Source: Ceratodon purpureus
Lineage: Eukaryota > Streptophyta > Bryopsida > Pseudoditrichales > Ditrichaceae
DNA: 64,000 nucleotides
Direction of reading: 5' to 3'
NCBI GenBank assembly: GCA_014871385.1
Contig: CM026426.1
Location: forward strand, 71,125,377-71,189,376
The notes below the pieces were generated by a model. It did not search any database. It was not told where the DNA came from and saw only the letters and a program-made list of their open reading frames with translations. Below, piece after piece: positions 21-23,433 of this stretch. Position numbers and translations under genes: made by a program. Numbering within the stretch: position 1 is the first letter of the stretch; each line of letters opens with the position of its first letter.

Positions 21-28
21 CATGTATG
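21..28. repeat. Left target-site duplication CATGTATG
   Basis: Eight bases directly abutting the left CAGGG end, identical in direct orientation to 23426-23433. Eight bp is the expected hAT duplication length. Confidence 0.93.
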
Positions 29-48
29 CAGGGTTTTCTATTCCGTCG
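29..48 (+). repeat. Left terminal inverted repeat of the giant hAT
   Basis: Reads CAGGGTTTTCTATTCCGTCG. It matches the reverse complement of 23406-23425 at 19 of 20 positions (T versus G at position 14). Looser similarity continues inward for about 100 bp on both sides, with shared CCGTCGCGACGT, CATTCGG and GTCACGAC words separated by indels. Confidence 0.92.
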
Positions 49-700
49 CGACGTGCCCCTCTCGCGTCACAATGTCGGGACGTCACGACGGTGTACAGTC
101 ACGACCGGACGTCCCATTCGGTCTTTATCGCGACGGCCCAAATATTTACGGCAACATTTTCACTTTTACATTTCCGCCCCGGCGACACCTCGGACAGCCG
201 ATGTCCACGTCTGCGATAAAGGTGGTCTGATACTGGTGGGCCCCAGTACCAGTCCGCTTCGTCCGCGCCACCCTGTACGATCCGATACCCAGTCCGATGT
301 CCGATCCGACATCCGCTTTCCGCCGGATCGATGCCCCGTCGTCCGACGGGTCTTCGTGATCTCGTCCGCATTCCGGCATCCCTCAAGGCGCTTATCCGCC
401 ATCCGATTGCTGTCGGCTCCGACGAAGTCCGCCACATTCTACTGTCCTCCTCGTGGTCGGACCCTGGTTCGGCCACTATCCCGACATTGTACCTTCGACG
501 GCCAAGTTCCGACCTGAGTTCGGGTCCGACGCATATCGAATTCGGATGTCCGGCAACATATCCCGGTGGACTCCCATCAAATGGACTGCGCGTTCTATGC
601 TACGCCTGCTTTATCTTCATGGTCGTTCTAGGAATCGGTGCATTATTTTCCACTTCGGTAACGGCTCGTTGAAACGTGACACTTTGACTGCATTTCAGCG
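49..700. promoter_or_regulatory. Left subterminal region rich in GTCCG motifs
   Basis: I see no convincing gene here. Between about 270 and 540 there are many TCCGA/TCCGC words, mostly in one orientation. In Ac/Ds, short subterminal repeats are the transposase binding sites, so these may play that role; that is inference. A polypyrimidine-CAG sequence ends at 698, just before the F-box ATG, and looks like the 3' splice site of a 5'-UTR intron. Confidence 0.5.
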
Positions 701-1048
701 ATGGCTCACAGTGCTGGGATTCCAGGGAGTCCTATCGCCTTGTTCGGGCCAGCCCAGTTTAGGAACGATTCTGACTTTAGCGACGATGAAGAGTATTTGG
801 CGATCGTGGAGATGGGGACGAGAGTCAGGCCGAGTTTCTTACCTGCCATCCCGGGAGACGTCTCGGAGGGCATCATCTGGAAGATGTTGATGGTCGAGGA
901 CGACGACATCGAGAACTACAGAACATGCACACTCCTCCGTTGTGTTTGCAGGGGGTGGAGGAACTTTGTGGATATTCAGCCACGTTGGTACCAGAGCCGA
1001 TTTGCATTCAACCTGCGGCCTTTTATGGATTCTGAAGACGAATCCTAG
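701..1048 (+). CDS. F-box protein, 115 aa (cargo gene of the giant hAT)
   Basis: Residues about 47-92 fit an F-box: a leading LPAIPGDVSEGIIWKML stretch, an acidic loop, then LLRCVCRGWRNFV. F-box proteins bind SKP1 and bring substrates to an SCF ubiquitin ligase. Little follows the box (about 23 residues), so no substrate-binding repeats are present; it could be a stand-alone adaptor or a competitor of host F-box proteins. An acidic patch (DFSDDEE) lies near residue 25 and an acidic tail ends the protein. The ATG sits 2 nt after a splice-acceptor-like CAG. It is the first gene inside the left end of the transposon. The F-box call rests on recognition by eye. Confidence 0.7.
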   Translation: MAHSAGIPGSPIALFGPAQFRNDSDFSDDEEYLAIVEMGTRVRPSFLPAIPGDVSEGIIWKMLMVEDDDIENYRTCTLLRCVCRGWRNFVDIQPRWYQSRFAFNLRPFMDSEDES

Positions 1049-1739
1049 GATATTGTTCGTTGAAACACTAAGGTGTAGGGTACCAAACATCGCAGTTTAG
1101 TACATCAAGATCTGCAATGCTTAGGGTTTAGCGTAGTTGCAGGTCTGCGATGGTCGGATTGGTGTCGACCATTGTCCGGCGCCTGTCGGACAACGGGTCG
1201 GACACTGCATTGCAGCCGAATAAGGCTGGTTTATCATGATATTGAATCCGTAAGTATTGGAATCATGAAACTTTAATTGTTAAATCATTGATGATACTGT
1301 AATCATACTTGTACATGCGTGGTCACTAATAAGTTCATGATGCCATTACATGTCCGGGGCCGTCTATCAATTCTGTTCTCGAGTGATACTCGTGTGATAG
1401 GGTGTATTATGAATGATATCATACTCCCTAGACATATCGAGCGTGTTACGTTTTATGATTATACCGTCGGCCCTGTTATAACTGCGTGTACGTCTGTTCG
1501 CAACTTGGGATTGATTTCATAATCCCAAATCTAGGTGGATTATAAGTTTTATTGCAACTGAGAGGGAAAATTAAATGCCCATTTGGAACTATGATGATCA
1601 TCGCCTCCCTTCTTGTATGTGTTGAGCGCCGTTGGTAATGCAGCACCATTGCGGAAAACGTTCTTCCTCCGTGGTGTAGCGTTGTCTATTCTCCGCGCGC
1701 TGACCTGCACCAACCTCAACTCATTTCGAGCCGTGCCCG
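1049..1739. other. Intergenic spacer, no gene seen
   Basis: It holds a telo-box-like TTAGGGTTTAG near 1118-1128, a few CGGAC words near 1150-1205 and AT-rich sequence from 1230 to 1550. One short reading frame in 1319-1522 shows no protein-like features. Confidence 0.5.
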
Positions 1740-3415: not shown

Positions 3416-4528
3416 CTTGTAACTGGAGAGGACTCGTCCACAATAACTTGCGGGCTAACTGCATCAAAAGGGACCTGTGTTATCGCACTTCCCGTTTATA
3501 TATCATGGCATACCTCGCGCACTATAGTCCGCCATTCGCCCTTTGCCGGACGACGCTGCCTCGGATTGAATCCGAACGTCCGTTGCCTGCTGCCCCTATC
3601 CGACCGTACCGGATCACCATCCGCGCTATACCGGACCGGCACAATCTCCTGCCAAAGGGCGGATGCGCGGGGTTCGTATTATCCGGCGCCGTTTTCACTG
3701 TCCAGACACAATCCGCCTTTCCGAAGTCGGATTCCGCTTCGCAAAGTTCCGACCCCTGACCTATGCTCTAGAAGAACGACGCGATATTGTTTAATCGTTC
3801 CTGTAATCAACTATGTCCGCCTTCGCCGCATTACTGCCCCGAGGTCGCGTCCGACCGATTCCGGAACGCGCACGTTTCGATCGGCGGACCACGTCCGAGC
3901 CTCTAATCCGTCGGGGTACCTCGTCCATGTCCGATTGCGGAGTTACCACATTCCGCAAAACGATCGGATTTCAGGTAGTCCGCCCGTCCGTGGTTCATCC
4001 ATCTCCGTACACGGGCCAATCTCACGGAGTGCGAACCACCTCCCCGATGTCAGCACACGACTGCCATAATATGCAGATCCTGACCATCTTTTTCCTACAA
4101 CGCGGACCAAAATCGAATCTGGTTACTGGACCGCCATCGATCCCGCTCTCGTCCGACCTCGTCCGCAACACCCGGAACAACTCCGCGATGTTCCGCTTCC
4201 TGGTCCCGGACACGCTCGGGGAGTGCCATAAAAGATGCGACTCACCAGGCTCTGTTCTCCCTTCTTTGCACTGCGTGTCTCAGGACTCTGGGGTCTCGAC
4301 TGAGGTTCCTCTGCATGAGACCCAAGTGTGCTCAAGGGGTCAAGCATAGCCCACTGGAACGGACCGTCCGAACTCCATCGGAGATCTGGAACATAATCAG
4401 GGCAAGTCCATCCCTCCACCCTCGTTCAACGACGCTAGAAGTGCGTTGTCGGGCGCAATTTCTGTAATAGGTCCATCTCGCCTTAAATAGTGCGTTCACC
4501 CTCCAGATTCTTGCTTTCTGTCGCAGGC
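3416..4528. promoter_or_regulatory. Divergent promoter region between accessory gene and transposase
   Basis: About 1.1 kb without a convincing gene, dense in TCCGA/TCCGC/GTCCG words from 3540 to 4180. A TATA box for the minus-strand gene lies near 3497-3503, and a CATAAAAG box at about 4227-4234 points toward the transposase, about 300 nt upstream of its ATG. A polypyrimidine stretch ending in CAG at 4526 precedes the ATG, consistent with a 5'-UTR intron. Confidence 0.5.
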
Positions 4529-7500
4529 ATGCCGCGAAGAGTAGATGCCTGGGATCAGTGGTGGCAAGACTTGGGCGTGGTGGGTGCGAGGCCTCAGAGA
4601 CAGGTTAGGTGTAGAATTTGTAATGTGACTATTGTGTACCGTCGGGATAGAATGTTCGCCCACTTTGGATACAGACCTTTAGGTGGTCCAGGTAACTACG
4701 GTATACAAGTTTGCAGGTTGCTAAGTGCGCGGGTGAGGAGGTTGTTCGTAGACTGCGGAGGTGAAGTTCCTAGAAGAGAGCCCGATGATGTTCATGACAT
4801 TGGCTTGGGAGGTGACGGGGTCCCAGATCCGGTAATACCTCAAGCTCCCGATAACGAGGGGGCGCGCGCGAATGATGGGCCAGCTATGCAGGAGCCCGAT
4901 ATGGCACCCCAGGGTTCTCCACCCAGGGAAATGCGTCAAGTGAATCTTGTGCAAGGATTCAATGCTTCCACGAAGCTTCGATTAGATAAAGTGTGGGCGA
5001 CGGCATTCTACGAAGCCAATATCCCATTCAACGTTATTAAGCATCCTGCCTTCATTAACGCCGTTCGGGAAACAGTGCGAGCCCGCTTCCCGGCATACCT
5101 GCCGCCATCGATGAATGCTATTCGCACAAAACTGTTGAGCGCGAGAAAGGCGGAAATGGTGAGACAAGTAAGGGAACTCACGGGCAATTCCACAGAGAAA
5201 TACGGTGTTACGATATGTGCAGACGGTTGGGACAACGTCCAGAGTCGTCCTCTTCTGAATGTTATCCAGAGTGGGACCAGGGGCGACGTTTTCCTTGGAA
5301 CCATAGACACGACGGGACACTACAAAGATAGCGATTACATCGCTTCTCAGATCCGTCCGTTTGTGGAACGGGCCGGACCGCAACATGTGGTCCAAGTTTG
5401 CACTGACAATGCTCCGAACATGCTTGGATCCAGTCGGATGCTCGAGACACGATATCCTCACATTTATGTTCAAGGGTGTGCCGCACATTGCTTGGATCTG
5501 TTGCTCGAAGATTGGGGGAAGCAGGATTGGGTGAAGCACATAGTCAGAAAGGCGAGACTTATTTGTCTATGGGTTAGAAATCATCATTCATCAATGGCTT
5601 TGTTTCGCAGGATGTGTCCCAATCTGACCATCCGTTTGCCCGTTGAGACGCGGTTCGCGACGAATTTCATTATGATCGAGCGTCTTGTGGAACTTCGGAA
5701 TGCATTTGAGAGAATGGTCATCGATCCGGCGTTTGCAGGTATTTTAGCAACCTATCCTGATGTGAACAGCTCAGCAGGGAAGAGGGTCCGCCTATTTCGG
5801 AAGTACGTGCGTGCGGACGGTTTCTGGAACACGTGCCATAACTTCTTATACATGGTCATCCCAGTGGTGAAGGCATTACGCCTTTTTGATGGGAAGGCAC
5901 CTGCAATGGGCCTAGCTTGGAGGGCGATGTACGATTTGAAGAACCACGTCCGCAGTTTTTCCTCCCATCCGTTTAGATTGAACGCGGACCTGGCAGCAGA
6001 CGCCATGGTCGCATTCGACCACAGATGGGCTATGATGTTGACAGATCTTCATTGGGCAGGTGCGATGCTCAACCCGACCCTACGTGGATGGGCGCCACTT
6101 CATAACCACGAGGAGTCGAGGATCATTTTAAACCGGGTTTTTCGCAAGTTATCCTCTAACGAGGAGAATTACGTCCAGATCCTTGTCCAGTATCAGGATT
6201 TCCTCGAGAATCGGGAGGCATTTGCTGATTCAACCGATCCCCAGGCGCACGGCACTGCTATCCACGAATGGTGGGACGCAATGGGAGGTGGAGCCCGGGC
6301 TCTCCAAACAATAGCTAGACGTATACTTGGACAGGTTTGCTCCGTGTCTGCGTGTGAGCGCAACTGGAGCATGTACTCTTACGTGCACAGCAAGGTGCGC
6401 AATAGATTGAAACATGTACGAGCGGAGGACCTCGTGTATATCTACACGAACAGTAGACTCGTTCGTCACCGCCGGGCCCCGCGTCCGGCACAGTGGTATG
6501 GCTTAGAGGAGGTTCATTCCGACGATGACCTCGATGGCGAGGATCCGGACGAGGACGACGAGGAGGAAGACGTCGGACGGGGAGGAGACCATGTAGCGGA
6601 CGATGTGGCGGACGATGCCCGCATGGATGGTGTCGGACAGGGCGGATTGGGCATGGGGGGTGTCGGACTTGCGGACGACGATCCGCCCGAGAGCGACTTT
6701 GAGGAATCTGGATCGGACGACGCAGGATCTGACGGTGACGACGGTGGCGATGTCCGGATTGCCGAGCTCTTCCACAATATGTTCGACGCAGGACATCGCC
6801 GAGATGCGGTTGAAGATATCCTCCGCCAGGATAGTCGCGTCGGACGGCAGGCGTATGCAGGAGGTGAGCGTCGAGCTCAGAGTCCGATCAACGAAGCAGA
6901 AATACAGTCGGACAGAGGAGATGGTAGTCCGGCCCGGAGGATACCTATCGTCGACGCGGACTTCTCGCAGCCTTGGAGTGATTCTTTGTCATTTGGCCAG
7001 AGGGATTTCGACGAGAACCTGGCGAACATGGAGGGAGAGATTCGAACTGTTCTTCAGGAGGATTTACCACCTATCAATCGCCGGAGAGATGAAATGACGG
7101 AGGAAGATTCGAGAAGGAGGATGGCCGACCAGGAAGTTCAGACCCCGTCTGAGGAAATACGCCGTCCCATAACTCGAAGCCTTGCTAGTACGTCCGGAAG
7201 TATGGCTGTAAACCAGCAACAGCCAGCTTCTGCCCTGCTCTCCACCCCCGTTGGTAGGGGTCACATCCTTCCGCAGCAGACCTCCGGCCGGGGTCGCAGA
7301 CGCCGAGCAGTAGGATCTGCTGTAACCAACGGTAGCCAGTCCGTTGTTCTGACCGCGTCTTCTTCACGCAGCCGGCCCGTGCGGAGAGGGGTTCCATCTA
7401 CGTCGATCCGGGACCCTGCGGCACGTGCATCTAGTTGCACGACTGGGGAAAGAGTGTCCAGTGGTCCTGCAAGGGGAAGTGTTATCCAACGAACAACAAG

Positions 7501-7774
7501 AGGTGTAAAGCGAAAGAAAAGGTTCCAGGGGACTGCGTCGCGTTTCGCCCCGTACGAACCTGACAACTCCGAAGGTAGACCAGAACTCGATGAAAATGGA
7601 ATACGCGACCCTCAAGGATCCCGTCCAACGAAGAAGCTAGTTATCACCAGAGACGATGAGTTGCGGCTAAGCACTAGAAGTCCGCGGTCTGATGACGACA
7701 TGAGCACAGATGAATCCGAGGAGGACCGACGTTGCGACGAAGCGAACGACCCAACTGTTCGGATCCGAGAGTGA
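4529..7774 (+). CDS. hAT transposase, 1081 aa, apparently catalytically intact
   Basis: This should be the enzyme that excises and inserts the giant element. The first ATG after the acceptor-like CAG is at 4529. The N-terminus has a degenerate BED-like zinc-finger region (C28, C31, H45). A DUF659-type RNase-H core follows with CADGWDN (D232) and VCTDNAPNM (D293), then a conserved GCAAHCLDLLLEDW motif. The hATC dimerisation region spans about 580-647 and includes SACERNWS (E610), so the D-D-E triad is present with no stop or frameshift. Residues about 660-1081 are an unusual long tail: a strongly acidic block to about 745, then Ser/Arg-rich disordered sequence with a basic VKRKKRF signal. The acidic block is built from repeated CGGAC-containing codons. 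Confidence 0.93.
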   Translation: MPRRVDAWDQWWQDLGVVGARPQRQVRCRICNVTIVYRRDRMFAHFGYRPLGGPGNYGIQVCRLLSARVRRLFVDCGGEVPRREPDDVHDIGLGGDGVPDPVIPQAPDNEGARANDGPAMQEPDMAPQGSPPREMRQVNLVQGFNASTKLRLDKVWATAFYEANIPFNVIKHPAFINAVRETVRARFPAYLPPSMNAIRTKLLSARKAEMVRQVRELTGNSTEKYGVTICADGWDNVQSRPLLNVIQSGTRGDVFLGTIDTTGHYKDSDYIASQIRPFVERAGPQHVVQVCTDNAPNMLGSSRMLETRYPHIYVQGCAAHCLDLLLEDWGKQDWVKHIVRKARLICLWVRNHHSSMALFRRMCPNLTIRLPVETRFATNFIMIERLVELRNAFERMVIDPAFAGILATYPDVNSSAGKRVRLFRKYVRADGFWNTCHNFLYMVIPVVKALRLFDGKAPAMGLAWRAMYDLKNHVRSFSSHPFRLNADLAADAMVAFDHRWAMMLTDLHWAGAMLNPTLRGWAPLHNHEESRIILNRVFRKLSSNEENYVQILVQYQDFLENREAFADSTDPQAHGTAIHEWWDAMGGGARALQTIARRILGQVCSVSACERNWSMYSYVHSKVRNRLKHVRAEDLVYIYTNSRLVRHRRAPRPAQWYGLEEVHSDDDLDGEDPDEDDEEEDVGRGGDHVADDVADDARMDGVGQGGLGMGGVGLADDDPPESDFEESGSDDAGSDGDDGGDVRIAELFHNMFDAGHRRDAVEDILRQDSRVGRQAYAGGERRAQSPINEAEIQSDRGDGSPARRIPIVDADFSQPWSDSLSFGQRDFDENLANMEGEIRTVLQEDLPPINRRRDEMTEEDSRRRMADQEVQTPSEEIRRPITRSLASTSGSMAVNQQQPASALLSTPVGRGHILPQQTSGRGRRRRAVGSAVTNGSQSVVLTASSSRSRPVRRGVPSTSIRDPAARASSCTTGERVSSGPARGSVIQRTTRGVKRKKRFQGTASRFAPYEPDNSEGRPELDENGIRDPQGSRPTKKLVITRDDELRLSTRSPRSDDDMSTDESEEDRRCDEANDPTVRIRE

Positions 7775-8610
7775 ACGCTCGCCTAGTCTTCATACTACGA
7801 TATGAGGAGACCTCCATTCCGTACTTATCCGAGCCGTGTCCGACAACCTCGTCACCCGTCCGCGCATGAATCGGTCTGCTCCGCGACAGATGTGCGACCT
7901 CTGTCCGCCCACGATTAATATCCCCTTTTGGTGGCTCTCCGACCTCGTCCGCCGTGGATCCTTTAGTGTTCTGTGTCTTGCCCCTCCCACTCCCCCTCCT
8001 CGCACTCCCCTCCTCGCACTCCCCTCCTCGCGCCATCCTCACTTCTGTGTCAGACATGCACTCTTCGCTACCCCGGATATGGCACTGTCCGACTCACTGT
8101 CCGGCGCCTATACTGATTGGATGATCTCGGAGGCTACTCGTCCGATCCCGTTGCCGGATGTCCGCTGCAGGTCGGACGGGTTGCATTGTAATCTTCGTCC
8201 CCGTTTGCGTACAGTTCACTTCCCTTCCGTCCGTATTAGAGTGCACCCTCCGCGGTCCCTCAATTTTGTCTATTTTATCCTGTTCCGAATAATAAAAATA
8301 TCATTATTTCGTAGAGCATGCATCGTGGGAAGTCCCATTTGGTATAGTATTCCACATGTGGATGTAATTGTACGTGATTTACAAACAGAGTGAGAATATG
8401 TATTATAAAAAACTAATGGAATAAGGAAAACATTGGAATTTTTTGGCATCCGTTTTATAAAAGCCCAAATAACAAGTTATTAAAGCGTGTGACAATCATT
8501 TACTAATTACGGCATTTACATTCCAAGATTCCTGTAAAATCTCTAATCTCTTTTTTAAATATTTGTTTATGCAACCAACACATGAGTATAGTAATTACGT
8601 TGATTTTGCG
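7775..8610. other. 3' spacer with GTCCG words, then AT-rich DNA
   Basis: From 7800 to 8250 the sequence is CT-rich and full of TCCGAC/TCCGCC words in the same orientation as the element ends. From 8270 on it is AT-rich. No gene supported. Confidence 0.45.
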
Positions 8611-8611
8611 T

Positions 8612-8691
8612 ACATGTGCATATAACAAACATGTGCATATAAGAAACATGTGCATATAAGAAACATGTGCATATTAGAAACATGTGCATAC
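8612..8691. repeat. 17-bp tandem repeat, about 4.7 copies
   Basis: Unit ACATGTGCATATAAGAA, with copies at 8612, 8629, 8646, 8663 and a partial at 8680, differing by one or two bases. Confidence 0.85.
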
Positions 8692-8777
8692 GTGCTCTCT
8701 AAACCCAAATCCCATTATCCTCATTGTTACGAAAGGGGGGGGGGTGGGGCTGCGGTGGGGTAGTGATACCTCACAAT

Positions 8778-8862
8778 GCGGTAAGTTGCGGTATGTTGCG
8801 GTAAGTTGCGGTAAGTTGCGGTGCGTTGCGGTAAGTTGCGGTGCGTTGCGGTAAGTTGCGGT
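8778..8862. repeat. 10-bp GTTGCGGTAA minisatellite, copy 1
   Basis: Repeats of GTTGCGGTAA/GTTGCGGTGC immediately precede the first copy of the 0.3-kb direct repeat. A G-tract and the words TACCTCACAATGC lie just upstream. Confidence 0.85.
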
Positions 8863-9154
8863 TAAGATTTAATAGAAACGCCTTTCATATCCAAAACTAT
8901 TTGCCTACATATGTTAAACCTTTTGCCTACACGCCAACCAACTTTGTCATACCTAGTTAAATCGTAGTATAATTTATACGGTCGTTATATTTTTTTAGGA
9001 AATTTAATTGTCCTCATCGGAATTGTAGTTGGACTTCTATATTATTTTTTAGTCTACTTTCACTCTTATGCCATCTAATTGATCATTGCCACCAATTAAT
9101 TCTAATTTTAATATCGTTGCAATACTCCCGTTAGTAATCACTCTGTATTTATCG
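8861..9154. repeat. About 295-bp direct repeat, copy 1
   Basis: Nearly identical by eye to 9958-10253, differing by scattered substitutions and single-base indels. Both copies follow the same decamer minisatellite, so the duplicated unit is minisatellite plus about 295 bp. The segment is AT-rich with no coding capacity. The pair resembles degenerate long terminal repeats or a local duplication nested inside the hAT. Confidence 0.88.
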
Positions 9155-9339
9155 ATAGATTGGGGAAGGTGGGGGGGGGGGGGGGGGCGATGGGCTAGTG
9201 CTACCTCACAATGCACGTGCAGTCGTCTCTCTACTTCATTTCTTCATGTTATCCGTGTGCACATGGCTCCGCTTAGTTGCGAGGTTCGGCGAAGGGAATT
9301 TCTCATTGCCGTTCCATTTACAACGAACGTCTTCTCCAA

Positions 9340-13586: not shown

Positions 13587-14408
13587 ATGTCCACCGGATC
13601 GGGCACTCCCTCTAGGAGGAGGCCGAGCAGACCGGGCGGAGATGAGTCCGCCGGCGGATCGCAGTCCGCCAGTGGTTCCGGGAAGAGAGCCCGCAAAGAA
13701 CTGGATTTGCAGCTGGACGTTTTCCACAATAGAGCGATACTGGCTGCTAATGGCTGGGAGGAAGTGCCAGAGCCTTGGGACGCTGCGACGGCTATGCATT
13801 TTGTCGACTTTCCTCATTTCGATCGGCTTTGGCCAGATAGTTCGCACGCGCAACACTGTAAGTCGAAGAACGCGAAATATGCATCCTTGACAGACGTGGA
13901 CGTGAAGTGGAGATTCCTCTGCATTCTCCGGGCAATTTCCAATGAATCGAAGTGGCCCAAGAACGAGATCCCGAAGGCTATTCTTTCCCTGATGTATGCC
14001 GAGCATGTGTTGAAGAAGAAGGTCGACTGGTCTACCTTAAAGACTCCAGGCTCCACTTTCGGAGGTCTAGGAGAGAAATTGACAGCGAAGAAGCCGGTGC
14101 ACATACCTTATATAGATGTGCCCGAATGGTTCAAGCGTAATCCTTCCCTCGTTGAAGATCCAGGGGGTCCGATACCGACAGACAAGGAACCGTCGAGGGC
14201 CGGGAGACCACGGCAACGCACAATACAGAATGCCACGTACGAGGATCAGATGGCTGGCATGCTCGGATCCGATTGGCAGGGAAGTGGGTCGGATCCCCAT
14301 CATTGGCGGGAGTGCGGGAGAAGGGTCGGGCGCGGCGACTGCATCGCTTGCGAGGGACGGGGGGAACGATCGGACGGGATCGGCATGGGGACCATCCGAG
14401 GCAGGTGA
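13587..14408 (+). CDS. Unrecognised 273-aa protein, probable N-terminal part of the RING-H2 gene
   Basis: An intact frame from ATG 13587. Residues about 1-45 are Ser/Gly/Arg-rich with a basic GKRARKEL signal. Residues about 48-190 look like a folded domain (AANGWEEVPEPWDAATAMHF, then VKWRFLCILRAISNESKWPK). After about 14250 this frame loses protein character while another frame (14280-14540) becomes acidic and protein-like (GLEEIVNATVASFSGADID). The original frame resumes in the RING-H2 reading frame from 14607. I infer one gene interrupted by an intron or by two indels in the CGGACGAGG-rich minisatellite at 14534-14614. No family recognised for the folded part. Confidence 0.5.
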   Translation: MSTGSGTPSRRRPSRPGGDESAGGSQSASGSGKRARKELDLQLDVFHNRAILAANGWEEVPEPWDAATAMHFVDFPHFDRLWPDSSHAQHCKSKNAKYASLTDVDVKWRFLCILRAISNESKWPKNEIPKAILSLMYAEHVLKKKVDWSTLKTPGSTFGGLGEKLTAKKPVHIPYIDVPEWFKRNPSLVEDPGGPIPTDKEPSRAGRPRQRTIQNATYEDQMAGMLGSDWQGSGSDPHHWRECGRRVGRGDCIACEGRGERSDGIGMGTIRGR

Positions 14409-14533
14409 GGAGAGTTCTGGGCCAGATGTGGCTATGGTCGGATTGGAAGAAATCGTCAACGCGACAGTAGCCTCCTTTTCTGGAGCTGACATAGACCTTG
14501 ACATGGCGCACGGTGGGACCGAGAGCGCGAATC

Positions 14534-14614
14534 CGGGTTTAGGTAGGTCGAACGAGGGTTTGGGTGCGTCGGACGAGGGTCTGGGATGCGTCGGACGTGG
14601 GTTTAGGTGGGTCG
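14534..14614. repeat. GGGTTTAGGTxGGTCGGACGA minisatellite within coding DNA
   Basis: About four imperfect units of roughly 20 bp, each with a TCGGACG or TCGAACG core. Length change in this array would shift the reading frame between the two halves of the RING gene. Confidence 0.65.
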
Positions 14615-14627
14615 GACCACAAATTCG

Positions 14628-16910
14628 ATGGGAGAATCGCTTCCGACGACCTCACGGGATTGGCGGATGCCCGGCTCGGAACACGGGTTATTCGGACGAG
14701 GTGCGACAACTAGCACTGGCCATCACGATCCTCCTCAGCCGAGAGGTGCAGCAAACGTTGTATTGGGAGCAGACCCGGTAATGCGGCGTCTGCTAGAGGA
14801 AGTTTTTGCCAAACATGACGCGGACGTTCGGGAGTTAAAAGCAACAATAGGTGGTTTGGAACTGAAGATAGAGGCTCTTCGCGTGTCCGACAGCGGGGAC
14901 CAGATGGCAGGAACATCGGACACAGAGTTGATGCGAGAAAGGGACGAGGCGCTGAGATCCGCTGAGAGAGCGGAGGCACGGGCTAATGCATGGGAAAAGG
15001 ATATGAAAGCCTCCATGTACGCAGCGAAAACGGCCGAGGACCTGACCACGCAGTTAAATGGCCAACTCACGGACGCTGAGGAACGCATAATTGGGTTGCA
15101 AACGGAAATGAGGGAGATGAGCGTCCGACTCGAAGATGCGGAAAAGCGAGCAATAGCGGCGGAAGCCACATCCACGGAGCGGGCTGTCCGACTAGAGGAA
15201 TCCGAGATACGTGCGAAGGCAATGGAAGACGAATGTCGGAGACTGTCTCGCCAATTGGAGGAGGAGAAGAAGAATACATCGAAGCAAGGAGAGATAATCC
15301 TGCGACTGGAGTCCAAAATGGAAGATAATAAGAAGAAGGCTTCGGACGCAATAGCTTTGGCAAAGAAAACACAGGAAGAACTAAACGAGCTCCGGGAAGT
15401 CGCTACGACGAGCGACAACTTGATACGTGCGGAGGCAGAGGCGGAGAAAGAAGCAAACAATGCCAAGGTGGTGGAATTGGAGACAGAGAACCTGCGACTA
15501 CTAGAGGAGGTAACACGGCTTGGGAAGGCCACTGGCGCTGTGAGTGAAGGTGGTGCCAACGATGATCCAATCCAGGGCTGGTCGGAGTCATTAACTCAGG
15601 AGCAGAAGGCATTACTCGTGGGTGCGCTCCAAAAAACGGAGGATATGTACGTGATCGCTATACTTGCATTAGCGGGGCGACTTCAGTACGAGAAGGAATT
15701 CGAGGCAATTCAGAAAGAGTGGACGGAGAATGGACGATTGCGACACTTGCTCCTCACCTCCTGGCCGCCTTTACAGACGATGTACCCTCCGGAATGGGAG
15801 GACAGTCCGGGGATCCGGTCCGGCACGGGCAGCATTCAGTGGGAGAATGTTGCTGAGATTGATCATCACTGGAAGCGGGATCAGAAATGGGGGATGGGCA
15901 AGACCGAAGAGCTGCGGGCGGCGCTGACTTGGCCCGTCCCGCACGACATGACAAAGGACGGAACCAATTGCATCGTGTGCTTTAATCCTTTTGGCCCGGA
16001 GGGGTGCTACCAACTGGGGACGTGCAAACATGGATTTCACCCATATTGTTTAATCCCGATGATGATAAGAAGACGTGCGTGTCCAATCTGCTCAGCCCCT
16101 CTCCATCCTCGCCTGTATTTGACATTCGGATTGAGGGATTTCATGCCCAGGGGCTGGGCGTACGATCCAAGGGAGTTCCCACTTAACTATCCGCTCGGGA
16201 CTTTCGAGGGAAAACCAATGGAGTGGGTCTGGCAACTACACACGTCGCAGCTCGAGATGTGGCACCAATTTCAGCCTACGGACTTGCTAAAGAAACCGAG
16301 GACCATTATGCAAGCGGCCGATTTGTTGTACCCAGGGATGCCTGTCGATAGTGGACTCAGGCAATACTTTTACCAGATGTGCAAACACTACTGGGACAGT
16401 AGGAAGGGCCAGCTGGTTCCAGGGGAGAATCCAAATCCAGTGAATTCACAAGGATTGCCTGCGACATCTGCCAACGTATTGGCAGGATTTCCAGGAGGAT
16501 ATACGGGTGCTACCAGTAGTCGCGAGATGGATTACGAACAGGGTTACCACACGATGCGGCTAGAGATTCTCGCTTTAGAAGAATTGTTATGCAAAATTCT
16601 CCCCGCTACCAAGAGGTGGCTGGATAAGAAAGGACCGAGGCCCAAGCCGAAGGAGCCATCATGTCGTCAACGCTTGTTATCGAGTGGTGCTTCAACTTCA
16701 GGAACTTCAGGGGCCACACCAAGGAGCGCGACACCGCCGGGGAATTCCACGAGGAACGCGTCACGAACCCGTTTGAACCCAAGCCAGTCGGCACCTCCCT
16801 CCAGAGTCCCGACACCGCCGATTCCGCCGTCCGAGGGCCCAACGCAACCTGGCCACAATAGTGCAGCGTCCGGATCAGGTGATACATTGCAATTAGACGA
16901 TTCGGAGTGA
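14628..16910 (+). CDS. Coiled-coil RING-H2 protein, 760 aa (putative E3 ubiquitin ligase)
   Basis: An intact frame; the first in-frame ATG is 14628. Residues about 50-305 are a long coiled coil (repeats of E/K/R with A/L; RLEDAEKRAIAAEAT). A RING-H2 finger spans residues 448-488: CIVC, then CKHGFH, then YC, then CPIC (C3H2C3 order). RING-H2 fingers recruit ubiquitin E2 enzymes, and a coiled coil usually mediates dimerisation or substrate contact. Residues about 490-650 look folded (YDPREFPLNYPLGTFEGKP); the C-terminal 100 residues are Ser/Thr/Pro-rich. The true N-terminus may be the frame at 13587. E3 activity is inferred from the finger. Confidence 0.8.
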   Translation: MGESLPTTSRDWRMPGSEHGLFGRGATTSTGHHDPPQPRGAANVVLGADPVMRRLLEEVFAKHDADVRELKATIGGLELKIEALRVSDSGDQMAGTSDTELMRERDEALRSAERAEARANAWEKDMKASMYAAKTAEDLTTQLNGQLTDAEERIIGLQTEMREMSVRLEDAEKRAIAAEATSTERAVRLEESEIRAKAMEDECRRLSRQLEEEKKNTSKQGEIILRLESKMEDNKKKASDAIALAKKTQEELNELREVATTSDNLIRAEAEAEKEANNAKVVELETENLRLLEEVTRLGKATGAVSEGGANDDPIQGWSESLTQEQKALLVGALQKTEDMYVIAILALAGRLQYEKEFEAIQKEWTENGRLRHLLLTSWPPLQTMYPPEWEDSPGIRSGTGSIQWENVAEIDHHWKRDQKWGMGKTEELRAALTWPVPHDMTKDGTNCIVCFNPFGPEGCYQLGTCKHGFHPYCLIPMMIRRRACPICSAPLHPRLYLTFGLRDFMPRGWAYDPREFPLNYPLGTFEGKPMEWVWQLHTSQLEMWHQFQPTDLLKKPRTIMQAADLLYPGMPVDSGLRQYFYQMCKHYWDSRKGQLVPGENPNPVNSQGLPATSANVLAGFPGGYTGATSSREMDYEQGYHTMRLEILALEELLCKILPATKRWLDKKGPRPKPKEPSCRQRLLSSGASTSGTSGATPRSATPPGNSTRNASRTRLNPSQSAPPSRVPTPPIPPSEGPTQPGHNSAASGSGDTLQLDDSE

Positions 16911-17680
16911 GATGAACTCCTAGAACTGTATAGAGTGGTAACCATTAACAATGTTTCATTTTCTTTCATAACTATAGTAACCATTGCATAAACATAACTT
17001 CATTTGGCTTTTTCCTTTCCCGAAGACTCACCTAGAGTCACCAACGCCTAAGTCTGGATATATGCCATATAAAGAGTATTATCCCTTCAGTCCGCGCATG
17101 CGACCGAGTCCGAGTCCGCCCATGCGTCCGAGTCCGAATCCGCCCGTGCGTCCGGGTCCGAGTCTGCCCATGCATCCGAGTACGCGTGGTGCAATCACCG
17201 ATCGACCCATCCGTTCGCATCATAAGATCGCGAGCCCATGCGGACATAGCAACCCCCCCGTCCGACGACCCGCCTCGTCCGCATTCACAGTCCGCCAAGT
17301 CCGACTGTGCGATCCGACCAACCCGCTAACCCTAATTCGCTCACAGGCCTAGATCCTACGTCTGCCACCCGACCGATCCCTTCCAAGGGTGATCGCCAAG
17401 CAATCAGTTATCGTCCCAGATCAATGATCTTCCTCGTCTCCTATATAAAGGTGTCCCTTTATTTTCCGCTCACTTTCCCATCCTCTCTAGGCCTCTCGTT
17501 GGGATCCGAGACTCTGTTGCGTCCGTCGGGACAGCGGCAGTGCGCGGGTCCGGAGGGTCAGTAGAGCACGGGACCGATTTCAGAGACAAACCCTTGCTAA
17601 TTTATATCAGGGTTCTGAACTGACTCGCCTACCGAAAAACCAATTGCTGATTGTTCTGTTTTCTTCCTTTCCAGGGTACC
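16911..17680. promoter_or_regulatory. Spacer with 24-bp tandem repeat and promoter of the kinase-like gene
   Basis: No gene supported. An array of 24-bp units (CATGCGTCCGAGTCCGxxTC) spans about 17095-17190. A TATATAAA box lies at 17442-17449. A GTCAGT donor-like site near 17556 and a strong polypyrimidine-CAG ending at 17674, six bases before the ATG, suggest a 5'-UTR intron. Confidence 0.55.
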
Positions 17681-19614
17681 ATGGCAAACGAGAGTGGAAG
17701 AATACATCAGGAATGGCGATCCGACGGGAGCCCCATCGGAGCACTCGGGGTGGGCGGGGGGCGTGGCGGAGAGAGAACCAGGTTTAATTAGGAATTCACC
17801 CCGATGGAAAACCTCGGAGGAGGCCACTTGCAGCGAGCGCGGGGAACGCGGGGTGGCCATGGTTCCCGGAGTCACGGCTCTCGTGCAACCCATGGATCAG
17901 GGGGGCGACACGGTGCGATAGGGAGCCACGCCGCGGAAAACATCGGCAGCCAAGGCACTAGGTCTGGTCCAGCGAGCTCGGGAAGTTCTAGCGGAGTACA
18001 AGCACCCGCCATGGAAATCGTCCCGCCACCTAAACCACTACCTAGGGTATTGTGGACATCGGCACCGTCCGACCAGTGTCCGCCGTCTACTGAAGAGCGT
18101 AGGGGAAGTAAGCGGGCAGGGGGGTCGCAAGGAACGGAGTCTGGGTCGACCGCGTCCGGTTCTGAGGTTAGGAAGCACAAGCATCGGAAGAAGGTAGCCG
18201 CGTGTGACCAGCATTCCACGGAGGCTAGGCTTTGCTGTAGAAAGATAATCCTGGACTGGTTTGCAAGCCACGACATGCCATACTTGGAGAGTACATTCTT
18301 GAATGATGGTCCGGCGGGACTCGAGAAAGCTTTGAATGCTCTGAGGTTACTACTGCAGGAGGGCATGGCGGGGGATGAGTTCCAAGAGGATAGAGGGAAG
18401 AGTAATTGGGGACAGTGGATCGAGGAACAGGTGCAGGAGGCATTGTTCAATTTGACAGTGCCATTTAACATGTTGTGTGGACCTGGTTCGGGATGTAGTG
18501 GGGGAAACTCCGAGCTCCTACAGAAGCTGGAGAATTGGAAAATAGGTGCTATCCTCGCGAAGGGGAAGGGAAGGACTACACTGCCGAAGTTTGTCGGGAG
18601 AGCTCTGGCCGACGACATCGCTTCTCGGGACAGAAACGGTCTGAAGTGGCTACCGAAGGGTTCTTACGCCATCCCCGTAGACGAAAATAGTTTTCAGGGT
18701 TCGTTTGGAATCGTGCGAAGGGTGCGAATTGCAGAGGCATGTTTCATCCCGGAGTGGCTTCATTTTGCAGGGAAGACCATGAAGGTGACTGACTTCAAGA
18801 CAAGTCGCGATCAACGCTCTATCGAGGCAATGTCATGTCCAGTTGATCACCCTGGTGTGATTAAGCTGCAATACCTTAACCGGAAGACGCTCGAGTCGTA
18901 CTCGCTATGGTGGAACGGAGGCTCGTTGAAGAACATGCGTGCGTTCAATTTGAAATTTGGGGAAACCCATGAAATGGAACTCCTCAAAGACGCAGGTCTG
19001 GACTTCGAGGCCCGGAAGAAGCTGGTCGTTTACCGAAAAATCGAGCTCACTTGGCCAGGGCTCTCATGTGCATCGTGGATGTGGTACACGGCGAGGAAGT
19101 GCTACACTGCGACCTGCACCCTAACAATGTCATGCTCCACTTTCCAGCAGACCGCGACGGAGCTATTTTCATAGGTATATGTGACTGGGGAATGGCTTCT
19201 TTCATGCCCGAATCGGCCCCTTCGTACTACGGAGTACAGAGCGAAGACGCGATAAAGAAGCACATGGAAATGTACAGTTGTGCCGCTCCGGAGTTGTTCC
19301 ATGTGCATGGCTCTAGAGGCTCATCCCAATCCCCACGTCGCATGGCAAAGCAGCACCCTCACACGTACAAATCAGAGTCCTATAGCGTTGGAGTACTCGC
19401 AAGGCAGATTTACAACTCCGACTCGACATCGGTTCTATTTCAGCAGAACCGCGATCCTAACGGGGTTAAGATGCGCTTTGAGCAGGGTTTAGACGAAATG
19501 ACCCAGATCAACCCGGCTGCTAGACAAACCGTCACACACGTCGTGAGGACGTTGAAGTTACCACCTTACAATCTGCAAACACCGAATATGTGTTTCCGGG
19601 ACACCCATTCATAA
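17681..19614 (+). pseudogene. Protein-kinase-like gene, broken by one nonsense codon and one frameshift
   Basis: From ATG 17681 the frame is interrupted by TAG at 17789-17791 and continues open to about 19040. A Gly/Arg/Ser-rich N-terminus with a basic KHKHRKK signal precedes a kinase-like domain: glycine loop NSFQGSFGIV (about residue 338), AGKTMKV as the likely lysine, HCDLHPNNVML as catalytic loop (D codon at 19111), ICDWGMASF in place of DFG, and CAAPELF as the APE motif. The catalytic loop lies in another frame, so a 1-2 base indel near 19045 splits the domain before it. Key residues survive on both sides, so inactivation looks recent. The DWG variant and short N-lobe make it divergent; kinase activity is unproven. 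A downstream ATG (17804) could bypass the nonsense codon but not the frameshift. Confidence 0.72.
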
Positions 19615-20843
19615 ATCACATGTGAGTATGCAAAACTCCTTAGAAACGTTTTGTCCAACGCGCAAGTACCGCTTCTTAGTGGTCTGACAATTTGAATATA
19701 ACTATATCATTCTGAACACCAGGGTCCGAGTTTGCATTCGCCCAGGTTAGGCGCATAGGAGGTCATGTACCGTCTCTGAACAGATCAATTTGTAAATAGA
19801 GTTTGTTTGTCAAATTCCTGACCCCGAAGCCATGATAGAGTGATTGTAATTCCACAATATTGGGACCAGAGCCCTAAACACCCAACGTTTATTCCACGCC
19901 GGACCCTCTGAAAATGGTCCGGCGACGCGGACCACCCCCTTGCCCACTGCACCCGCGGATGGTGCCCGTTCACCTCGAATCCGTGCGATCCGACACCCTC
20001 CTGCAGTGACCACTGTCCGACATCTAGTCCGCCCACTCCGCGTACTCGTTGTGCCCGCTCTCCGATCCGTCTTACTCGCGTCCGAATCATGCCCGCTTAC
20101 CAGTCCGCCCCAGCCGCGTCCGCATATCATTGCCTTCCGACTCTAAACCCCGATCCGCATCCGCCTGTCCGGCCTCAATCGTCCGCTACATTAAACCACT
20201 TCGGTCTTCAAACCTGGCGACGAGGAATGTCGGAAAGACCGGACGACTGGCCGAGAAATACGGCTCGTGTCCCGTGCTTAGGCAGAGACAATGTCACAAA
20301 TCCTCTTCAACAACGTGAAATTCAAACTCTGACCAACTCATGAACGAAAATTCCCAATAGAACTTACGAACACGAGAGTTGATCGGTGTGACACTTCAGT
20401 AGAATTACAAGGTGCATAGATTTTTTTGAATGCAATGAATTTCGTGTTCATCCATCTATTAAACCGTCTTTTACCCACAGCCTACAGGACATTTGAAACA
20501 CCATATTCATGTTGCAATGATGGAGCCTATTTGGATACACTGAGTGTTGAAGGAGGAGTACGAAGACAGGAAGTCCTGAAAGGTATGTTGTCAAGTCACA
20601 GTCGCCAATCCGAACTCAACCCCTCAAATCACCATAATGAGATGACCACCTTGGCGTTAAATATGGCGGCTGCCTGTAGGGGTAGCCATGGCCAGGGCAG
20701 TTCCATTCAATCCACGCCATCGCTGAGAGTTTTGGTTGGAGTCGCCATTGCATTCTGGTTCCAACTTGTAGTTCGCTGGTCTGAGGTTGCCCCGGTCCGA
20801 TCGAAGAGGAGGGATATACCTGTTGCGAGTGAGAGGGGTCAGA
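19615..20843. other. Intergenic spacer with GTCCG block
   Basis: No gene supported. 19900-20240 is dense in GTCCG/TCCGC words in the left-end orientation. The rest is of mixed composition; a weak frame at 20426-20941 lacks protein features. Confidence 0.4.
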
Positions 20844-22321
20844 ATGGGAGAAGTTGGGAAGGAGAATTACTTTCACGTGAAGGTTGGGTTGCCAAATGCA
20901 GGTTTGGACCCCGCCTTCGACTGCAACCATGTCAGCAATGAGGAGCTAAGGTCCGTATTCGGAGAGAGGGTTCCTGGGAAGGGATATCTCATCGACGGAG
21001 CGAATTCAGGAGAGGTCAAGGCGAGAGTGTTGGAGCTGTACCCAGCAATCTCTCAAATTCCCGAGCTTCCTGCGGGTTTGTTCCTCCCGGAGAGCTTCGC
21101 GAGAGCGGTCGTTTCGGAGGTCTTCCATCGCTACCCAATGAACTGGGCAAAGTATGCGGAGGATCGCTGGAGGGGTAAGAAAATCGAGAGCGGAGACGAA
21201 CTCACAGTCCTGTATCGCACCCCTGACCGGAATGCCACCTACGTCGAAACCCTCTACAAGGGCCTGGAAGCCGAGATTGCGATCGCTGAGAAGGACTTTG
21301 AGACGGCCGTGGCAATCCATAGTGTTGCACACGAACGGGCTGCGCTTCTGAGGCAGACGGCCAAGCCACCGCTCACGGATATGGAGAGGTACAAGCTTCA
21401 GATCAAGCTGATGTGCATTGAGGAGACTATGGACTCCTCCGAGGCGAAACTGCAGAAGTGGGGGGCGATGAAGTCCGTCGTCGAAGGCTCTGCTGATGAA
21501 ACATTCCTGAGGTTCTTCAAAGACAAAATTTTCGGCGAAGAACAGAGAATCTTGGAGGCTGGGGAGGAAGTGCAACGTATGAAGGAGGATTTAACTGAAA
21601 CGTCGGCGAAGGATCTCGCGGTGGCCATCGAGGTTGAGAAACGCCTGTCTTCTGCAAAGCAGGATGCAAGGGACAAGGTGATGGGCTTGAAAGAAAATCT
21701 CCGCCAGCTTCAGATATGGTCGTCTACATCAATGTTCCGTGCCCCCAGTCCTCGAATCGCAGCGCCCACTCAGAACATCGACTCAATTACCCTTACAGTG
21801 CAAGGTTGCTCCCTTTGTAACCAAGGGTTTCCGGCGATGGACCTCGTGACTGCGTCGTGCGCTTGCCCATACCACCCGTGGTGCGCTGCAGTGCGGACGT
21901 CGCTTAGTCAGAACTGCGCAAGATGCGGGGAGCATTTCGCAGAGAACTGGTTGAACAGCTTCGGCTTTTTCAAGTGCGAAGGTACGTCAATGTCGCGCAT
22001 GTGCATTGATTTCCAGTATTGCTGAATCCGTTGCGGAACCGAATATGAAAAACTTCCGACTTATGAGTCTGTATCTTGCATCTGATAAGCAATTTTTTTT
22101 TGAAATTCGTTTTTGACATGATACTGTGCATTAGAGTGTCCAGGGCGCTGGTCCGGAACTGATATCTGAGTTTTGCTACAACAGCGCGAGTGGGGATTAG
22201 CAGTGCGCCAGATACTGGAGAGGGAGAAAAGAAGCGCAAGCATTTGAACTCGGACATTGGAGGGTGGAATTATGCGCGCAAGGACAAGTCGACCTCTACA
22301 TGCCGCCGGAAATCAAAATAG
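20844..22321 (+). CDS. RING-like protein with basic tail, two exons, 424 aa
   Basis: Exon 1 is 20844-21981, ending in phase 1 before GTACGT. Exon 2 is 22185-22321, after TTTTGCTACAACAG, and ends in TAG; the join keeps the frame exactly, giving 424 codons. Residues about 130-305 are helical and coiled-coil-like. A RING-like finger spans 322-361: CSLC, then CACPYHPWC, then CARC. It has the RING-H2 spacing but Cys instead of His at the fourth ligand. Exon 2 adds a basic tail with GEKKRKHL, a likely nuclear signal. A ubiquitin-ligase role is inferred. It is the last gene before the right end of the giant hAT. Confidence 0.75.
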
Positions 22322-23405
22322 TGTTTTCCACCTCCGATTTCTTGGAAGACTGCGACTGTATCTCAGCGACGGAATGGATTGCATTGTGACTACGCAGTGA
22401 ATTTTCTTACAGTAGCTTAGACACTTTACCTTTTTTAAACTCCCAACTGTGCATCCGAACCAGGAAAACTTTGATCAAAGACTGTTTGTAAGGAATTTTC
22501 GGACCTATACTCGTTTGATAACTAAGCTACTATCACGGAAGTCCTGTTTTTTATAAGGAACCTTTAGAGCTATACTCTTTCACTGACTAAACTTCTACCA
22601 AGACAGCCATGTTTTAATGGATTCATCTCGATTACAATATATAATCTGATGGAATTCAATGTCGGTTTGAGAAGTAGTTGGTCAGTGTGTCACTTCAGTA
22701 GTGTCGGATGGTTCGAATTTCATATTTGCTCGTGAAGCAGTTGAGCTGTATGAAAATTGAAGACAATATGTTCCCAATCACAGCATCGCGGACCACCCTG
22801 TATGTGTTCGTCCACATCGCGTCCGCCCGGTCCGAAAGCCTCCGTCCGCAATACGATCGGCATGAAGTCTGCCCACCCGGATACGCATTATCCCGCCTAC
22901 AGGCCCGTCCGAGCCATGTTCCCAACACCCCACTGCATCGCGGACCACCCTGTATGTGTTCGTCCACATCGCGTCCGCCCGGTCCGACAACCTCCATCCG
23001 CAATACGATCGGCATCAAGTCCGCCCACCCGGATACGCATTATGCCCGCCTACAGGCCCGTCCGAGCCATGTCCGCCTACCAGTCCGGCCCACTCGCGGA
23101 CTTCCCCGGCATTCAACGGTCGTGTTCCTCCTCAATCGTCCGCCAGGCCTAAACACGTCCGCCCCTGAACCCTAAATCGGTTGCCCGTCTCTGTCCGCCC
23201 GACTCCGCCGTCGGAACTCCTCCGGACATCCACGTCACCGTCCGGGGCCACCGCAATTCCAAGTAGGACGCCACGTAACGGGGCCGAGTAACTCTTTTAC
23301 CCACGCTACTCGCAGGACCTAGAGGACCCTACGCTGACCCCTATTGTGACGTCGGAGGACCCCCGTCACGACCCATTCGGACGTCGCGACGGAAAAGTCA
23401 CGACC
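22322..23405. other. Right subterminal region of the giant hAT, no gene
   Basis: AT-rich to about 22700, then a GTCCG-rich block up to the right inverted repeat. It includes a 152-bp tandem duplication. Confidence 0.5.
22784..23086. repeat. 152-bp tandem duplication, about two copies
   Basis: Copy 1 starts at 22784 and copy 2 at 22936, both with CATCGCGGACCACCCTGTAT. They differ by scattered substitutions. The unit is packed with GTCCG words. Confidence 0.85.
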
Positions 23406-23425
23406 CGACGGCATAGAAAACCCTG
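23406..23425 (-). repeat. Right terminal inverted repeat of the giant hAT
   Basis: Its reverse complement is CAGGGTTTTCTATGCCGTCG, 19/20 identical to the left end. It is immediately followed by the target duplication. Confidence 0.92.
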
Positions 23426-23433
23426 CATGTATG
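23426..23433. repeat. Right target-site duplication CATGTATG
   Basis: Directly follows the terminal CCCTG of the right inverted repeat and matches 21-28 at all eight positions. Confidence 0.93.

Follow-up and report, generated by a model that had tools for sequence, protein, structure and literature searches.

A 23.4-kb multi-gene unit of the moss Ceratodon purpureus is very likely a copy of a giant, recently active hAT transposon family

Transposons of the hAT superfamily, which includes Ac/Ds, Hermes and Tol2, generate 8-bp target site duplications (TSDs), have short terminal inverted repeats with a CAGGG / YARNG consensus, and are usually regarded as small, one-gene elements. Hermes-type hAT transposases have an RNase H-like fold with a helical insertion. 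VANDAL elements belong to a different group, being Mutator-like. MarorhAT-10 of Marasmius oreades is described as a 3,396-bp element (PMC9674265). The VANDAL elements of Arabidopsis are reported to code for VANC anti-silencing proteins and to harbour a short motif mainly in their noncoding DNA, which is rare in other elements (PMC5735166). Starships are described as giant fungal elements with cargo genes and a captain DUF3435 tyrosine recombinase (PMC12506042). The same source presents ToxhAT/ToxTA, a cargo transposon of ~14 kb first called a hAT element, as a likely non-autonomous Tc1/mariner element with a TA duplication and 74-bp ends, and for this reason it provides no precedent for a giant hAT element (PMC12506042). 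Literature matches listed for large hAT elements were unrelated papers only. The novelty of a cargo-carrying giant hAT element, proposed in a preliminary description of the locus presented here, is supported only within the literature searched, among the matches listed.

In the window, i.e. the whole stretch of 64,000 nucleotides of C. purpureus DNA that was analysed, a unit of 23,397 bp (positions 29-23425) is bounded by CAGGG inverted ends. The first 20 bases of its left terminal inverted repeat (CAGGGTTTTCTATTCCGTCG, 29-48, forward strand) match the right one (23406-23425, reverse strand) at 19 positions, and the TSD CATGTATG is present at 21-28 and 23426-23433 with 8 of 8 bases identical. 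The left flank is known for 28 bases only, because an assembly gap adjoins the first base of the window. A 13-base end motif is found window-wide without mismatch only at position 29 and, reversed, at 23425; one extra match within the element has two mismatches and is devoid of CAGGG. The 8-bp TSD and short inverted ends of the moss unit are those of the hAT superfamily, and like that superfamily and MarorhAT-10 it has a transposase with DUF659 and hAT dimerisation domains as well as non-autonomous relatives. At 23,397 bp, however, it far exceeds the 3,396 bp described for MarorhAT-10 (PMC9674265), and it differs further in its additional genes and in the motif repeats spread over the element.

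Matches to the left end were found in at least 40 places scored, window included, from 248 candidates. Among these 40, 26 start exactly at the base corresponding to position 29, 13 lie no more than 6 bases away, and one is the window copy itself. Twenty copies drawn from the 39 further matches were examined. The first 25 bases of the left end are exact in all 20, and both ends are present in 17, one of which is a deletion derivative; the right end was not found in the stretch read for the remaining three. Where found, it stops at the base corresponding to 23425 and is exact in 16 of 17 cases, with one difference in the copy at C9:6878948. Thirteen of the 20 copies have TSDs identical at 8 of 8 bases, all of different sequences, one has a 7/8 and one a 6/8 duplication, and in two the duplications are unmatched. 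The internal-deletion derivative, 2,366 bp long, is among the 13 with its own 8/8 TSD. The intact ends and the 8-bp duplication initially described at this locus thus recur elsewhere with new 8-bp duplications, as a genome search with the element ends had been expected to reveal, and this co-occurrence is more than chance. An empty site of near-identical sequence was not encountered; with its two flanks joined, one insertion site has a paralogue of 72% identity, whose alignment is poor at the junction itself. A second, different cargo element of 15.8 kb is located within one copy.

Distances within the unit are nearly fixed. Of the 40 left ends, window included, 23 are followed by the transposase gene, at a distance of 4489-4503 bp in every such copy except that of the window. 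The RING1 gene (see below) follows on the same strand, 8974-10805 bp further on, for 20 of the 43 transposases scored. No pairs in the wrong order or orientation were found among the matches listed, within 6 kb for left end and transposase and 12.5 kb for transposase and RING1. Because order and spacing are nearly fixed, the inner genes are not independent nested insertions. Nested insertion of these genes was one of two findings that the preliminary description had named as grounds for abandoning its proposal; the other, ends that never co-occur around the gene set, is contradicted by the 17 copies of 20 that have both.

One part of the unit has a different composition. An AT-rich noncoding stretch (8280-10680) contains tandem repeats of 10 bp as well as an internal duplication of 1.1 kb, and it lacks the GTCCG motif found elsewhere in the element. 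Copies L027, L029 and L051, the three others read over this stretch, contain it too, and the spacing implies it in further copies, so that it is part of the element; a nested insertion private to the window copy at 8.3-10.7 kb was ruled out, since its sequence or spacing is kept in other copies. This stretch, which may be an old nested insertion, is what speaks for a composite made of two hAT ends that bracket unrelated nested insertions by chance. The recurring order and spacing, the private 8-bp duplications around the unit and the absence of a second end pair in the window, where the end motif is exact only twice, argue against such a composite. We rejected it on the TSDs, the spacing and the end-motif count, and consider it highly improbable.

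The copies might alternatively stem from segmental duplication or assembly artefacts rather than from transposition. A 400-bp right flank is common to the copies at C6:51393344 and C8:7140686, indicating some recombination or duplication between copies, and N gaps adjoin the window copy and that at C6:72580135. However, the flanks of 15 of 17 insertions (two of these 15 being mostly N on one side) have no match to the compared loci, and TSDs differ between copies, with private 8/8 duplications in 13 of 20. On the flank comparison and the private TSDs, we rejected duplication as the origin of the copies, to which we attach hardly any probability. The right halves of 16 copies differ by 0.94% on average and by 0.06% at minimum. 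Order and spacing, TSDs and near-identical copies therefore indicate a single giant hAT element with several genes, resident and recently active, and not a composite. Very likely, 29-23425 is a member of an autonomous family of giant hAT elements that has been active recently in the moss genome, transposase-driven and with resident cargo genes.

The transposase gene (4529-7774, forward strand) codes for a protein of 1081 residues with DUF659 (PF04937, E=3.2e-37) and Dimer_Tnp_hAT (PF05699, E=1.1e-7) domains, both above the curated Pfam cut-offs. Asp232, Asp293, Glu610, Cys317 and His320 do not vary among 21 aligned sequences, namely that of the window and 20 of 52 database matches; by analogy with hAT enzymes, we take D232/D293/E610 and C317/H320 to be the catalytic and signature residues. 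The description of this frame as a lesion-free D-D-E transposase was borne out, and the gene is full length and stop-free in 22 of 43 scored copies. In a predicted structure, whose mean pLDDT is only 57, the strand order near D232 and D293 is compatible with an RNase H-like fold. PDB sequence searches with the transposase and the kinase described below yielded no match. No relative of the transposase was detected in the viral contigs scanned, and the prokaryote-filed contigs scanned harbour three matching loci, of which one is strong (E=1e-141) and the other two are short; at the DNA level, none of the three matches the element over at least 200 bases. The unit is presumably moved by its own transposase: this DUF659-type hAT enzyme would recognise the CAGGG ends, and probably also the GTCCG-rich subterminal repeats, and the whole 23.4-kb unit would be moved by cut-and-paste with an 8-bp target duplication.

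Additional genes of the element are all on the forward strand. A small ORF of 122 residues (680-1048), with a weak, partial F-box match below the cut-off (PF00646, E=0.0065), is open in all seven copies compared, and an ORF of 218 residues with no assigned family (11179-11835) is open in three of four, the window being included in both comparisons. The RING1 gene (13518-16910) codes for a RING finger protein, with a zf-RING_2 match (E=1.6e-5) just under the Pfam cut-off. In the window copy its frame is broken at 14.3-14.6 kb, giving two parts (13518-14408 and 14607-16910), and intact copies are found elsewhere; it is stop-free over at least 1122 residues in 23 of 59 scored copies. The protein kinase gene (17804-19614) forms a continuous frame of 603 residues in an intact copy, with a PF00069 match (E=6.2e-10); of 16 copies besides that of the window, 9 have an open kinase frame. 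Lys324, Glu341, the HxD motif, Asn442 and the DWG motif do not vary among 17 aligned sequences, the query and 16 of 64 matches. The stop-to-stop frame of RING2 (20772-22025), whose start codon is not fixed, ends with a C-terminal RING-like Cys/His pattern without significant Pfam match; the whole frame is free of stops or gaps in 12 of 17 copies, window included, one of the 17 not spanning RING2. The RING1 and RING2 proteins have no detectable homology (E=0.26), and an Rfam search gave no match. The kinase-type gene first reported in the unit is confirmed from an intact copy, while in the window its frame is shifted near 19.03 kb. The ubiquitin-type genes are represented by one near-cut-off zf-RING_2 domain and one RING-like pattern, but none has a match above the Pfam cut-offs and the F-box match is partial and sub-threshold. 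The genes for the RING protein, the kinase and the RING-like protein and the F-box-like ORF belong to the element as residents: they recur at the same place from copy to copy, with open frames in many.

These genes might nevertheless be passenger DNA, captured once by a genuine giant hAT element and without any role for it, a possibility that we consider unlikely. The analysis of variants among copies bears on it in both directions. RING1 appears little constrained (pairwise omega 0.88; P=0.14 for shared variants, P=0.012 for all variants), and no purifying selection was detected for RING2 (pairwise omega 1.01; P=0.18 for all variants), so that both are near-neutral among copies. Shared variants of RING2 comprise 3 synonymous and 15 nonsynonymous changes, and we do not claim positive selection because the variant counts are small. 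Lesions in many copies and the internal-deletion derivative, which moved without the cargo, also fit mere passengers. Conversely, the shared changes in the kinase (7 synonymous, 3 nonsynonymous, P=0.0024; shared versus singleton variants, Fisher P=0.026) appear constrained, like those in the transposase (7 synonymous, 2 nonsynonymous, P=0.001; shared versus singleton variants not significant, Fisher P=0.12, in 5 copies), and the catalytic residues are kept in deeply diverged kinase homologues. Furthermore, a diverged transposase (P0007, 58% identical) and a diverged kinase (P0083, 46% identical) are each listed with a longest contig of 15,563 bp, which suggests that the two genes are linked elsewhere, and clusters of GTCCG motifs are found upstream of each cargo gene.

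GTCCG/CGGAC motifs are in approximately fourfold excess in the noncoding DNA of the element without its AT-rich part (118 observed versus 28.2 +- 4.8 in shuffled sequences) and approximately doubled in its coding DNA (58 versus 29.8 +- 5.2); the flank has 54 (versus 40.9 +- 5.8) and the AT-rich part none (1.4 expected). Their orientation is weakly clustered, with same-strand neighbours in 103 of 175 cases versus 89.6 expected and a shuffle maximum of 111. Clusters are found in the left subterminal region (106-548, 12 motifs), upstream of the transposase gene (3815-4366, 13), over its end and downstream (7680-8229, 11), upstream of RING1 (13012-13298, 10), of the kinase gene (17090-17299, 12) and of RING2 (19900-20240, 11), and in the right subterminal region (22789-23378, 19). 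Like VANDAL elements as described, the moss unit has extra genes and a short motif dense in noncoding element DNA, but unlike in VANDALs the motif, which is a different one, is enriched in coding DNA too (PMC5735166). Pfam scans of the main ORFs of the moss unit recognised no VANC-like gene, although Pfam may hold no VANC model, and we do not claim that the unit is a VANDAL. The unit resembles the Starships in its giant size, its cargo genes and its own recombinase, and differs from those fungal elements as described by its hAT transposase, inverted ends and 8-bp TSD (PMC12506042); ten scanned ORF stretches gave no match to the DUF3435 tyrosine recombinase.

Our preferred reading is that the cargo genes act for the element, most likely in counter-silencing or regulation. 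Their products may modify host silencing factors, bring about their degradation or adjust the activity of the transposase, and the element-wide GTCCG motif might serve as an address tag, by analogy with VANC and its motif in VANDAL elements. More tentatively, we propose as conceivable, if somewhat doubtful, that a lineage of giant hAT elements with a conserved kit of kinase and RING ubiquitin ligases and an address motif exists in mosses, and perhaps in plants of other groups. With this kit and motif it would overturn host silencing, and it would be one of several kinds of giant cargo element that inhabit the genomes of mosses.

By counts made by eye among the matches listed, 12 of the 14 RING1 copies with less than 92% identity are found on the contig regarded as V, versus 16 of the 45 others (Fisher P=0.0016). 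The location of these copies, mostly on that contig, bears on the large size of moss sex chromosomes. The window copy itself is probably on the V chromosome of C. purpureus. With its own transposase, its resident kinase and RING genes and its many near-identical copies, the 23.4-kb unit shows that in a plant the hAT superfamily can mobilise DNA the size of a gene cluster in one step. With recent copies, a deletion derivative and uninterrupted transposases, the maximal size of hAT elements and the function of their extra genes are directly testable in a haploid laboratory moss. If our proposal is true, the giant hAT lineage of mosses would be the hAT equivalent of VANDALs in the way it works and of Starships in its size.

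The element is flanked by the 8-bp target-site duplication CATGTATG at 21-28, perfectly repeated at 23426-23433. Its left end begins at 29 with CAGGGTTTTCTATTCCGTCG, the reverse-complementary end finishes at 23425, and the two ends are identical at 19/20 bases. A scan of the window with the 13-base end motif yielded exact matches at these two ends and nowhere else, plus one match with 2 mismatches within the element. The frame at 4529-7774 (+) codes for a 1081-residue protein harbouring DUF659 and hAT dimerisation domains, both above Pfam cut-offs, and when it is aligned with 20 of 52 database matches, all 21 sequences share D232, D293, E610, C317 and H320. The core of its predicted structure is fair, and confidence is low at residues 611-1037 (mean pLDDT 57; 464/1081 residues at 70 or more). 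The inverted ends, perfect duplication and intact D-D-E transposase reported in the preliminary description are thus borne out.

The window lies at 71125377-71189376 on contig C6 (110,524,308 bases), presumably the V sex chromosome, judging from the letters VG in the locus tag KC19_VG232100 (protein P0047, Ceratodon purpureus), and its left edge adjoins a gap of N. In the assembly (362,488,568 bases, 151 contigs), 248 candidates came up for the first 400 bases, and the 40 matches listed, window included, are 98-100% identical. Among these 40 of 248, the match starts exactly at base 29 in 26 cases, at most 6 bases off in 13, and at base 1 in the window. For 20 of the 39 other left ends listed, we examined the left flank and the expected right-end stretch. 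In keeping with the single unit proposed initially, both ends are present in 17 of these 20 copies, and 13 of the 20 have their own perfect 8-bp duplications (contig:position C6:2307505, C13:10557122, C4:10890352, C4:8006224, C6:36218986, C2:2047933, C11:13066261, C8:5541176, C6:64026399, C6:51597882, C12:15619143, C5:11170295 and C2:11504910). The duplication matches at 7/8 bases in C8:7140686 and 6/8 in C6:72580135, and is unmatched in C9:6878948 and C6:51393344; the right end was not found within the stretch read for C12:2088269, C6:31428546 and C3:24429813 (3/20). Later insertions lengthen some complete copies, e.g. C2:11504910 and C12:15619143. Internal deletions in hAT elements arise by incomplete gap repair, and C5:11170295 is a 2,366-bp derivative that is left with ~0.9 kb from the left part and 1.5 kb from the right and is flanked by its own perfect duplication TGCCTAAT. 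As for the empty sites also anticipated, the insertion site of C8:7140686 has a 72% paralogue without insert in the window (40371-41110), weakly aligned at the junction. The copies show that a hAT-type unit of 23.4 kb has inserted in one piece at many places.

Other features were noted around these copies. The 400 bp to the right of C6:51393344 and C8:7140686 are shared, which points to segmental duplication or to recombination between copies. Flanking ORFs in the window (36929-40709 and 40371-41110) show by eye a SWIM-like CxC..CxH pattern, with no Pfam match; they are apparently part of a dispersed repeat, because a 72% relative hosts the hAT copy C8:7140686. An ORF at 60131-60697, with a weak DUF7869 match below cut-off (E 0.0034), possibly represents another transposon. 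A second giant element with terminal inverted repeats (~15.8 kb, C2 about 11508144-11523912) is nested in a hAT copy, with a 5-bp duplication, CTTGT, and imperfect ends GGGTGGAAGCACACTACGCC / GGTGTAAGCACACTACGCCC. One of its ORFs has a Pre-SET match (E 1.1e-11), and another has a RING-like domain with 39% identity to RING2 of the hAT over 62 residues; no transposase was identified in the 15 kb examined.

Linkage within the unit was assessed from the matching positions of three genome searches, in which 40 of 248 left ends, 43 of 1441 transposases and 59 of 1945 RING1 genes were scored; as only part of the candidates was scored, the counts are lower bounds and no census. The transposase gene lies 4489-4503 bp after the left end in at least 23 copies (23 of the 40 listed left ends; the window distance counts as 4528, since its match starts at base 1), and RING1 follows 8974-10805 bp after the transposase, on the same strand, in at least 20 (of the 43 listed transposases). 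Among the matches listed, no wrong order or orientation was seen for left end and transposase within 6 kb or for transposase and RING1 within 12.5 kb. The AT-rich stretch at 8280-10680, which contains tandem repeats of TTGCGGTAAG as well as a near-identical duplication of 1.1 kb, differs in composition from the rest of the element; it was also read in three other copies and its presence in others is implied by the spacing, which makes it an old part of the unit.

The motif GTCCG/CGGAC is absent from this AT-rich part (8.3-10.7 kb), whereas the remaining noncoding DNA of the element (10.28 kb) contains 118 occurrences versus 28.2 +- 4.8 expected from 100 dinucleotide shuffles. The corresponding figures are 58 versus 29.8 +- 5.2 in the coding parts and 54 versus 40.9 +- 5.8 in the flank (40.6 kb), and motif density per kb drops where the element ends on the right. 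Clusters occupy the two subterminal regions and precede the transposase, RING1, kinase and RING2 genes, with further ones within the transposase (6483-6957) and RING1 (14570-15343) frames. This pattern ties cargo and ends together into one co-evolved unit. As described for the Arabidopsis element VANDAL21, the target motif of VANC21 is dense in its noncoding parts and rare in other elements (PMC5735166). The element thus resembles VANDAL21 in having a short motif dense in its noncoding DNA, but the VANDAL21 motif is arrayed in a single orientation (PMC5735166), while orientation is only weakly clustered here.

The ubiquitin- and kinase-type cargo announced in the preliminary description holds for the kinase (17804-19614), which matches PF00069 (E 6.2e-10), and less clearly for the others. 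The RING finger of RING1 (13518-16910) falls slightly under the Pfam cut-off (zf-RING_2, E 1.6e-5), with its Cys/His residues conserved in 5/5 database relatives; RING2 (20772-22025) has a RING-like pattern only (best Pfam E 0.9), and the F-box match of the small ORF (680-1048) is partial and below cut-off. The kinase is probably catalytic, as the query and the 16 of 64 matches aligned with it (17 sequences) all have G299, G302, K324, E341, H435, D437, N442, D461-W-G463, P496 and E497. The longest contig is 15,563 bp for both a transposase relative (P0007, 58% identical) and a kinase relative (P0083, 46% identical), and we take it as one and the same; if so, the transposase-kinase association is older than C. 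purpureus. No such contig match was seen among RING1 relatives. A relative of this plant-type transposase also occurs on CADCWO010000266.1, from a cyanobacterial metagenome bin (E 1e-141), perhaps a moss contamination.

The right halves (8.9 kb) of 16 copies, one partial copy of 17 having been dropped, differ by 0.94% on average (0.06% to 1.60%). Among the matches listed, 22/43 scored copies have a full-length transposase free of stops, and RING1, counted by eye, is stop-free in 34/59, with a stop-free frame of at least 1122 residues in 23/59; in the window copy, the RING1 frame is split mid-gene. RING1 copies below 92% identity are mostly on C6, taken as V (12/14 versus 16 of the other 45 listed). 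The window kinase has a frame shift near 19.03 kb; of 16 other copies, one of which extends beyond the stretch read, 9 have a continuous, stop-free frame by coordinate comparison, and one intact copy reads through 603 residues. RING2 is free of stops and gaps in 12/17 copies, window included and one not covering the gene, and the small ORF is open in 7/7 copies compared.

Leaving out copies with <90% of the gene aligned, pairwise omega is 0.25 for the transposase (5 copies), 0.36 for the kinase (15 of 17), 0.88 for RING1 (17 of 17) and 1.01 for RING2 (16 of 17). Synonymous/nonsynonymous variants shared by at least two copies number 7/2, 7/3, 9/17 and 3/15, respectively, and singletons 10/13, 14/35, 31/64 and 15/29, the RING1 nonsynonymous count being inflated by frame-shifted stretches in some copies. 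With copies as non-independent draws, binomial tests against site numbers gave, in the same order, 0.001, 0.0024, 0.14 and 0.83 for shared variants and 0.00036, 0.024, 0.012 and 0.18 for all variants, and Fisher tests of shared versus singleton variants 0.12, 0.026, 1.0 and 0.23. Together, these values point to apparent constraint on the transposase and the kinase in the transposing lineage, to weak constraint on RING1 and to none on RING2.

As described, MarorhAT-10 has the same DUF659 and hAT dimerisation pair, but measures 3,396 bp (PMC9674265) as opposed to 23.4 kb. ToxhAT is now assigned by its own authors, as likely, to Tc1/mariner (PMC12506042). Two reviews, one on giant eukaryotic transposons (PMC6431247) and a 2026 one on gene capture by plant transposons (PMC13317346), have 0 occurrences of the whole word hAT. 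The novelty initially surmised agrees with our literature search, since none of the open-access matches listed describes a giant hAT with several genes.

hAT elements transpose by a cut-and-paste process in which the transposase mediates staggered 8-bp insertion. We propose that the element's own transposase moves the whole 23.4-kb unit and that the GTCCG repeats may be bound by a protein of the element. The kinase and RING proteins would work for the element, most likely by countering silencing or by acting on transposase activity.
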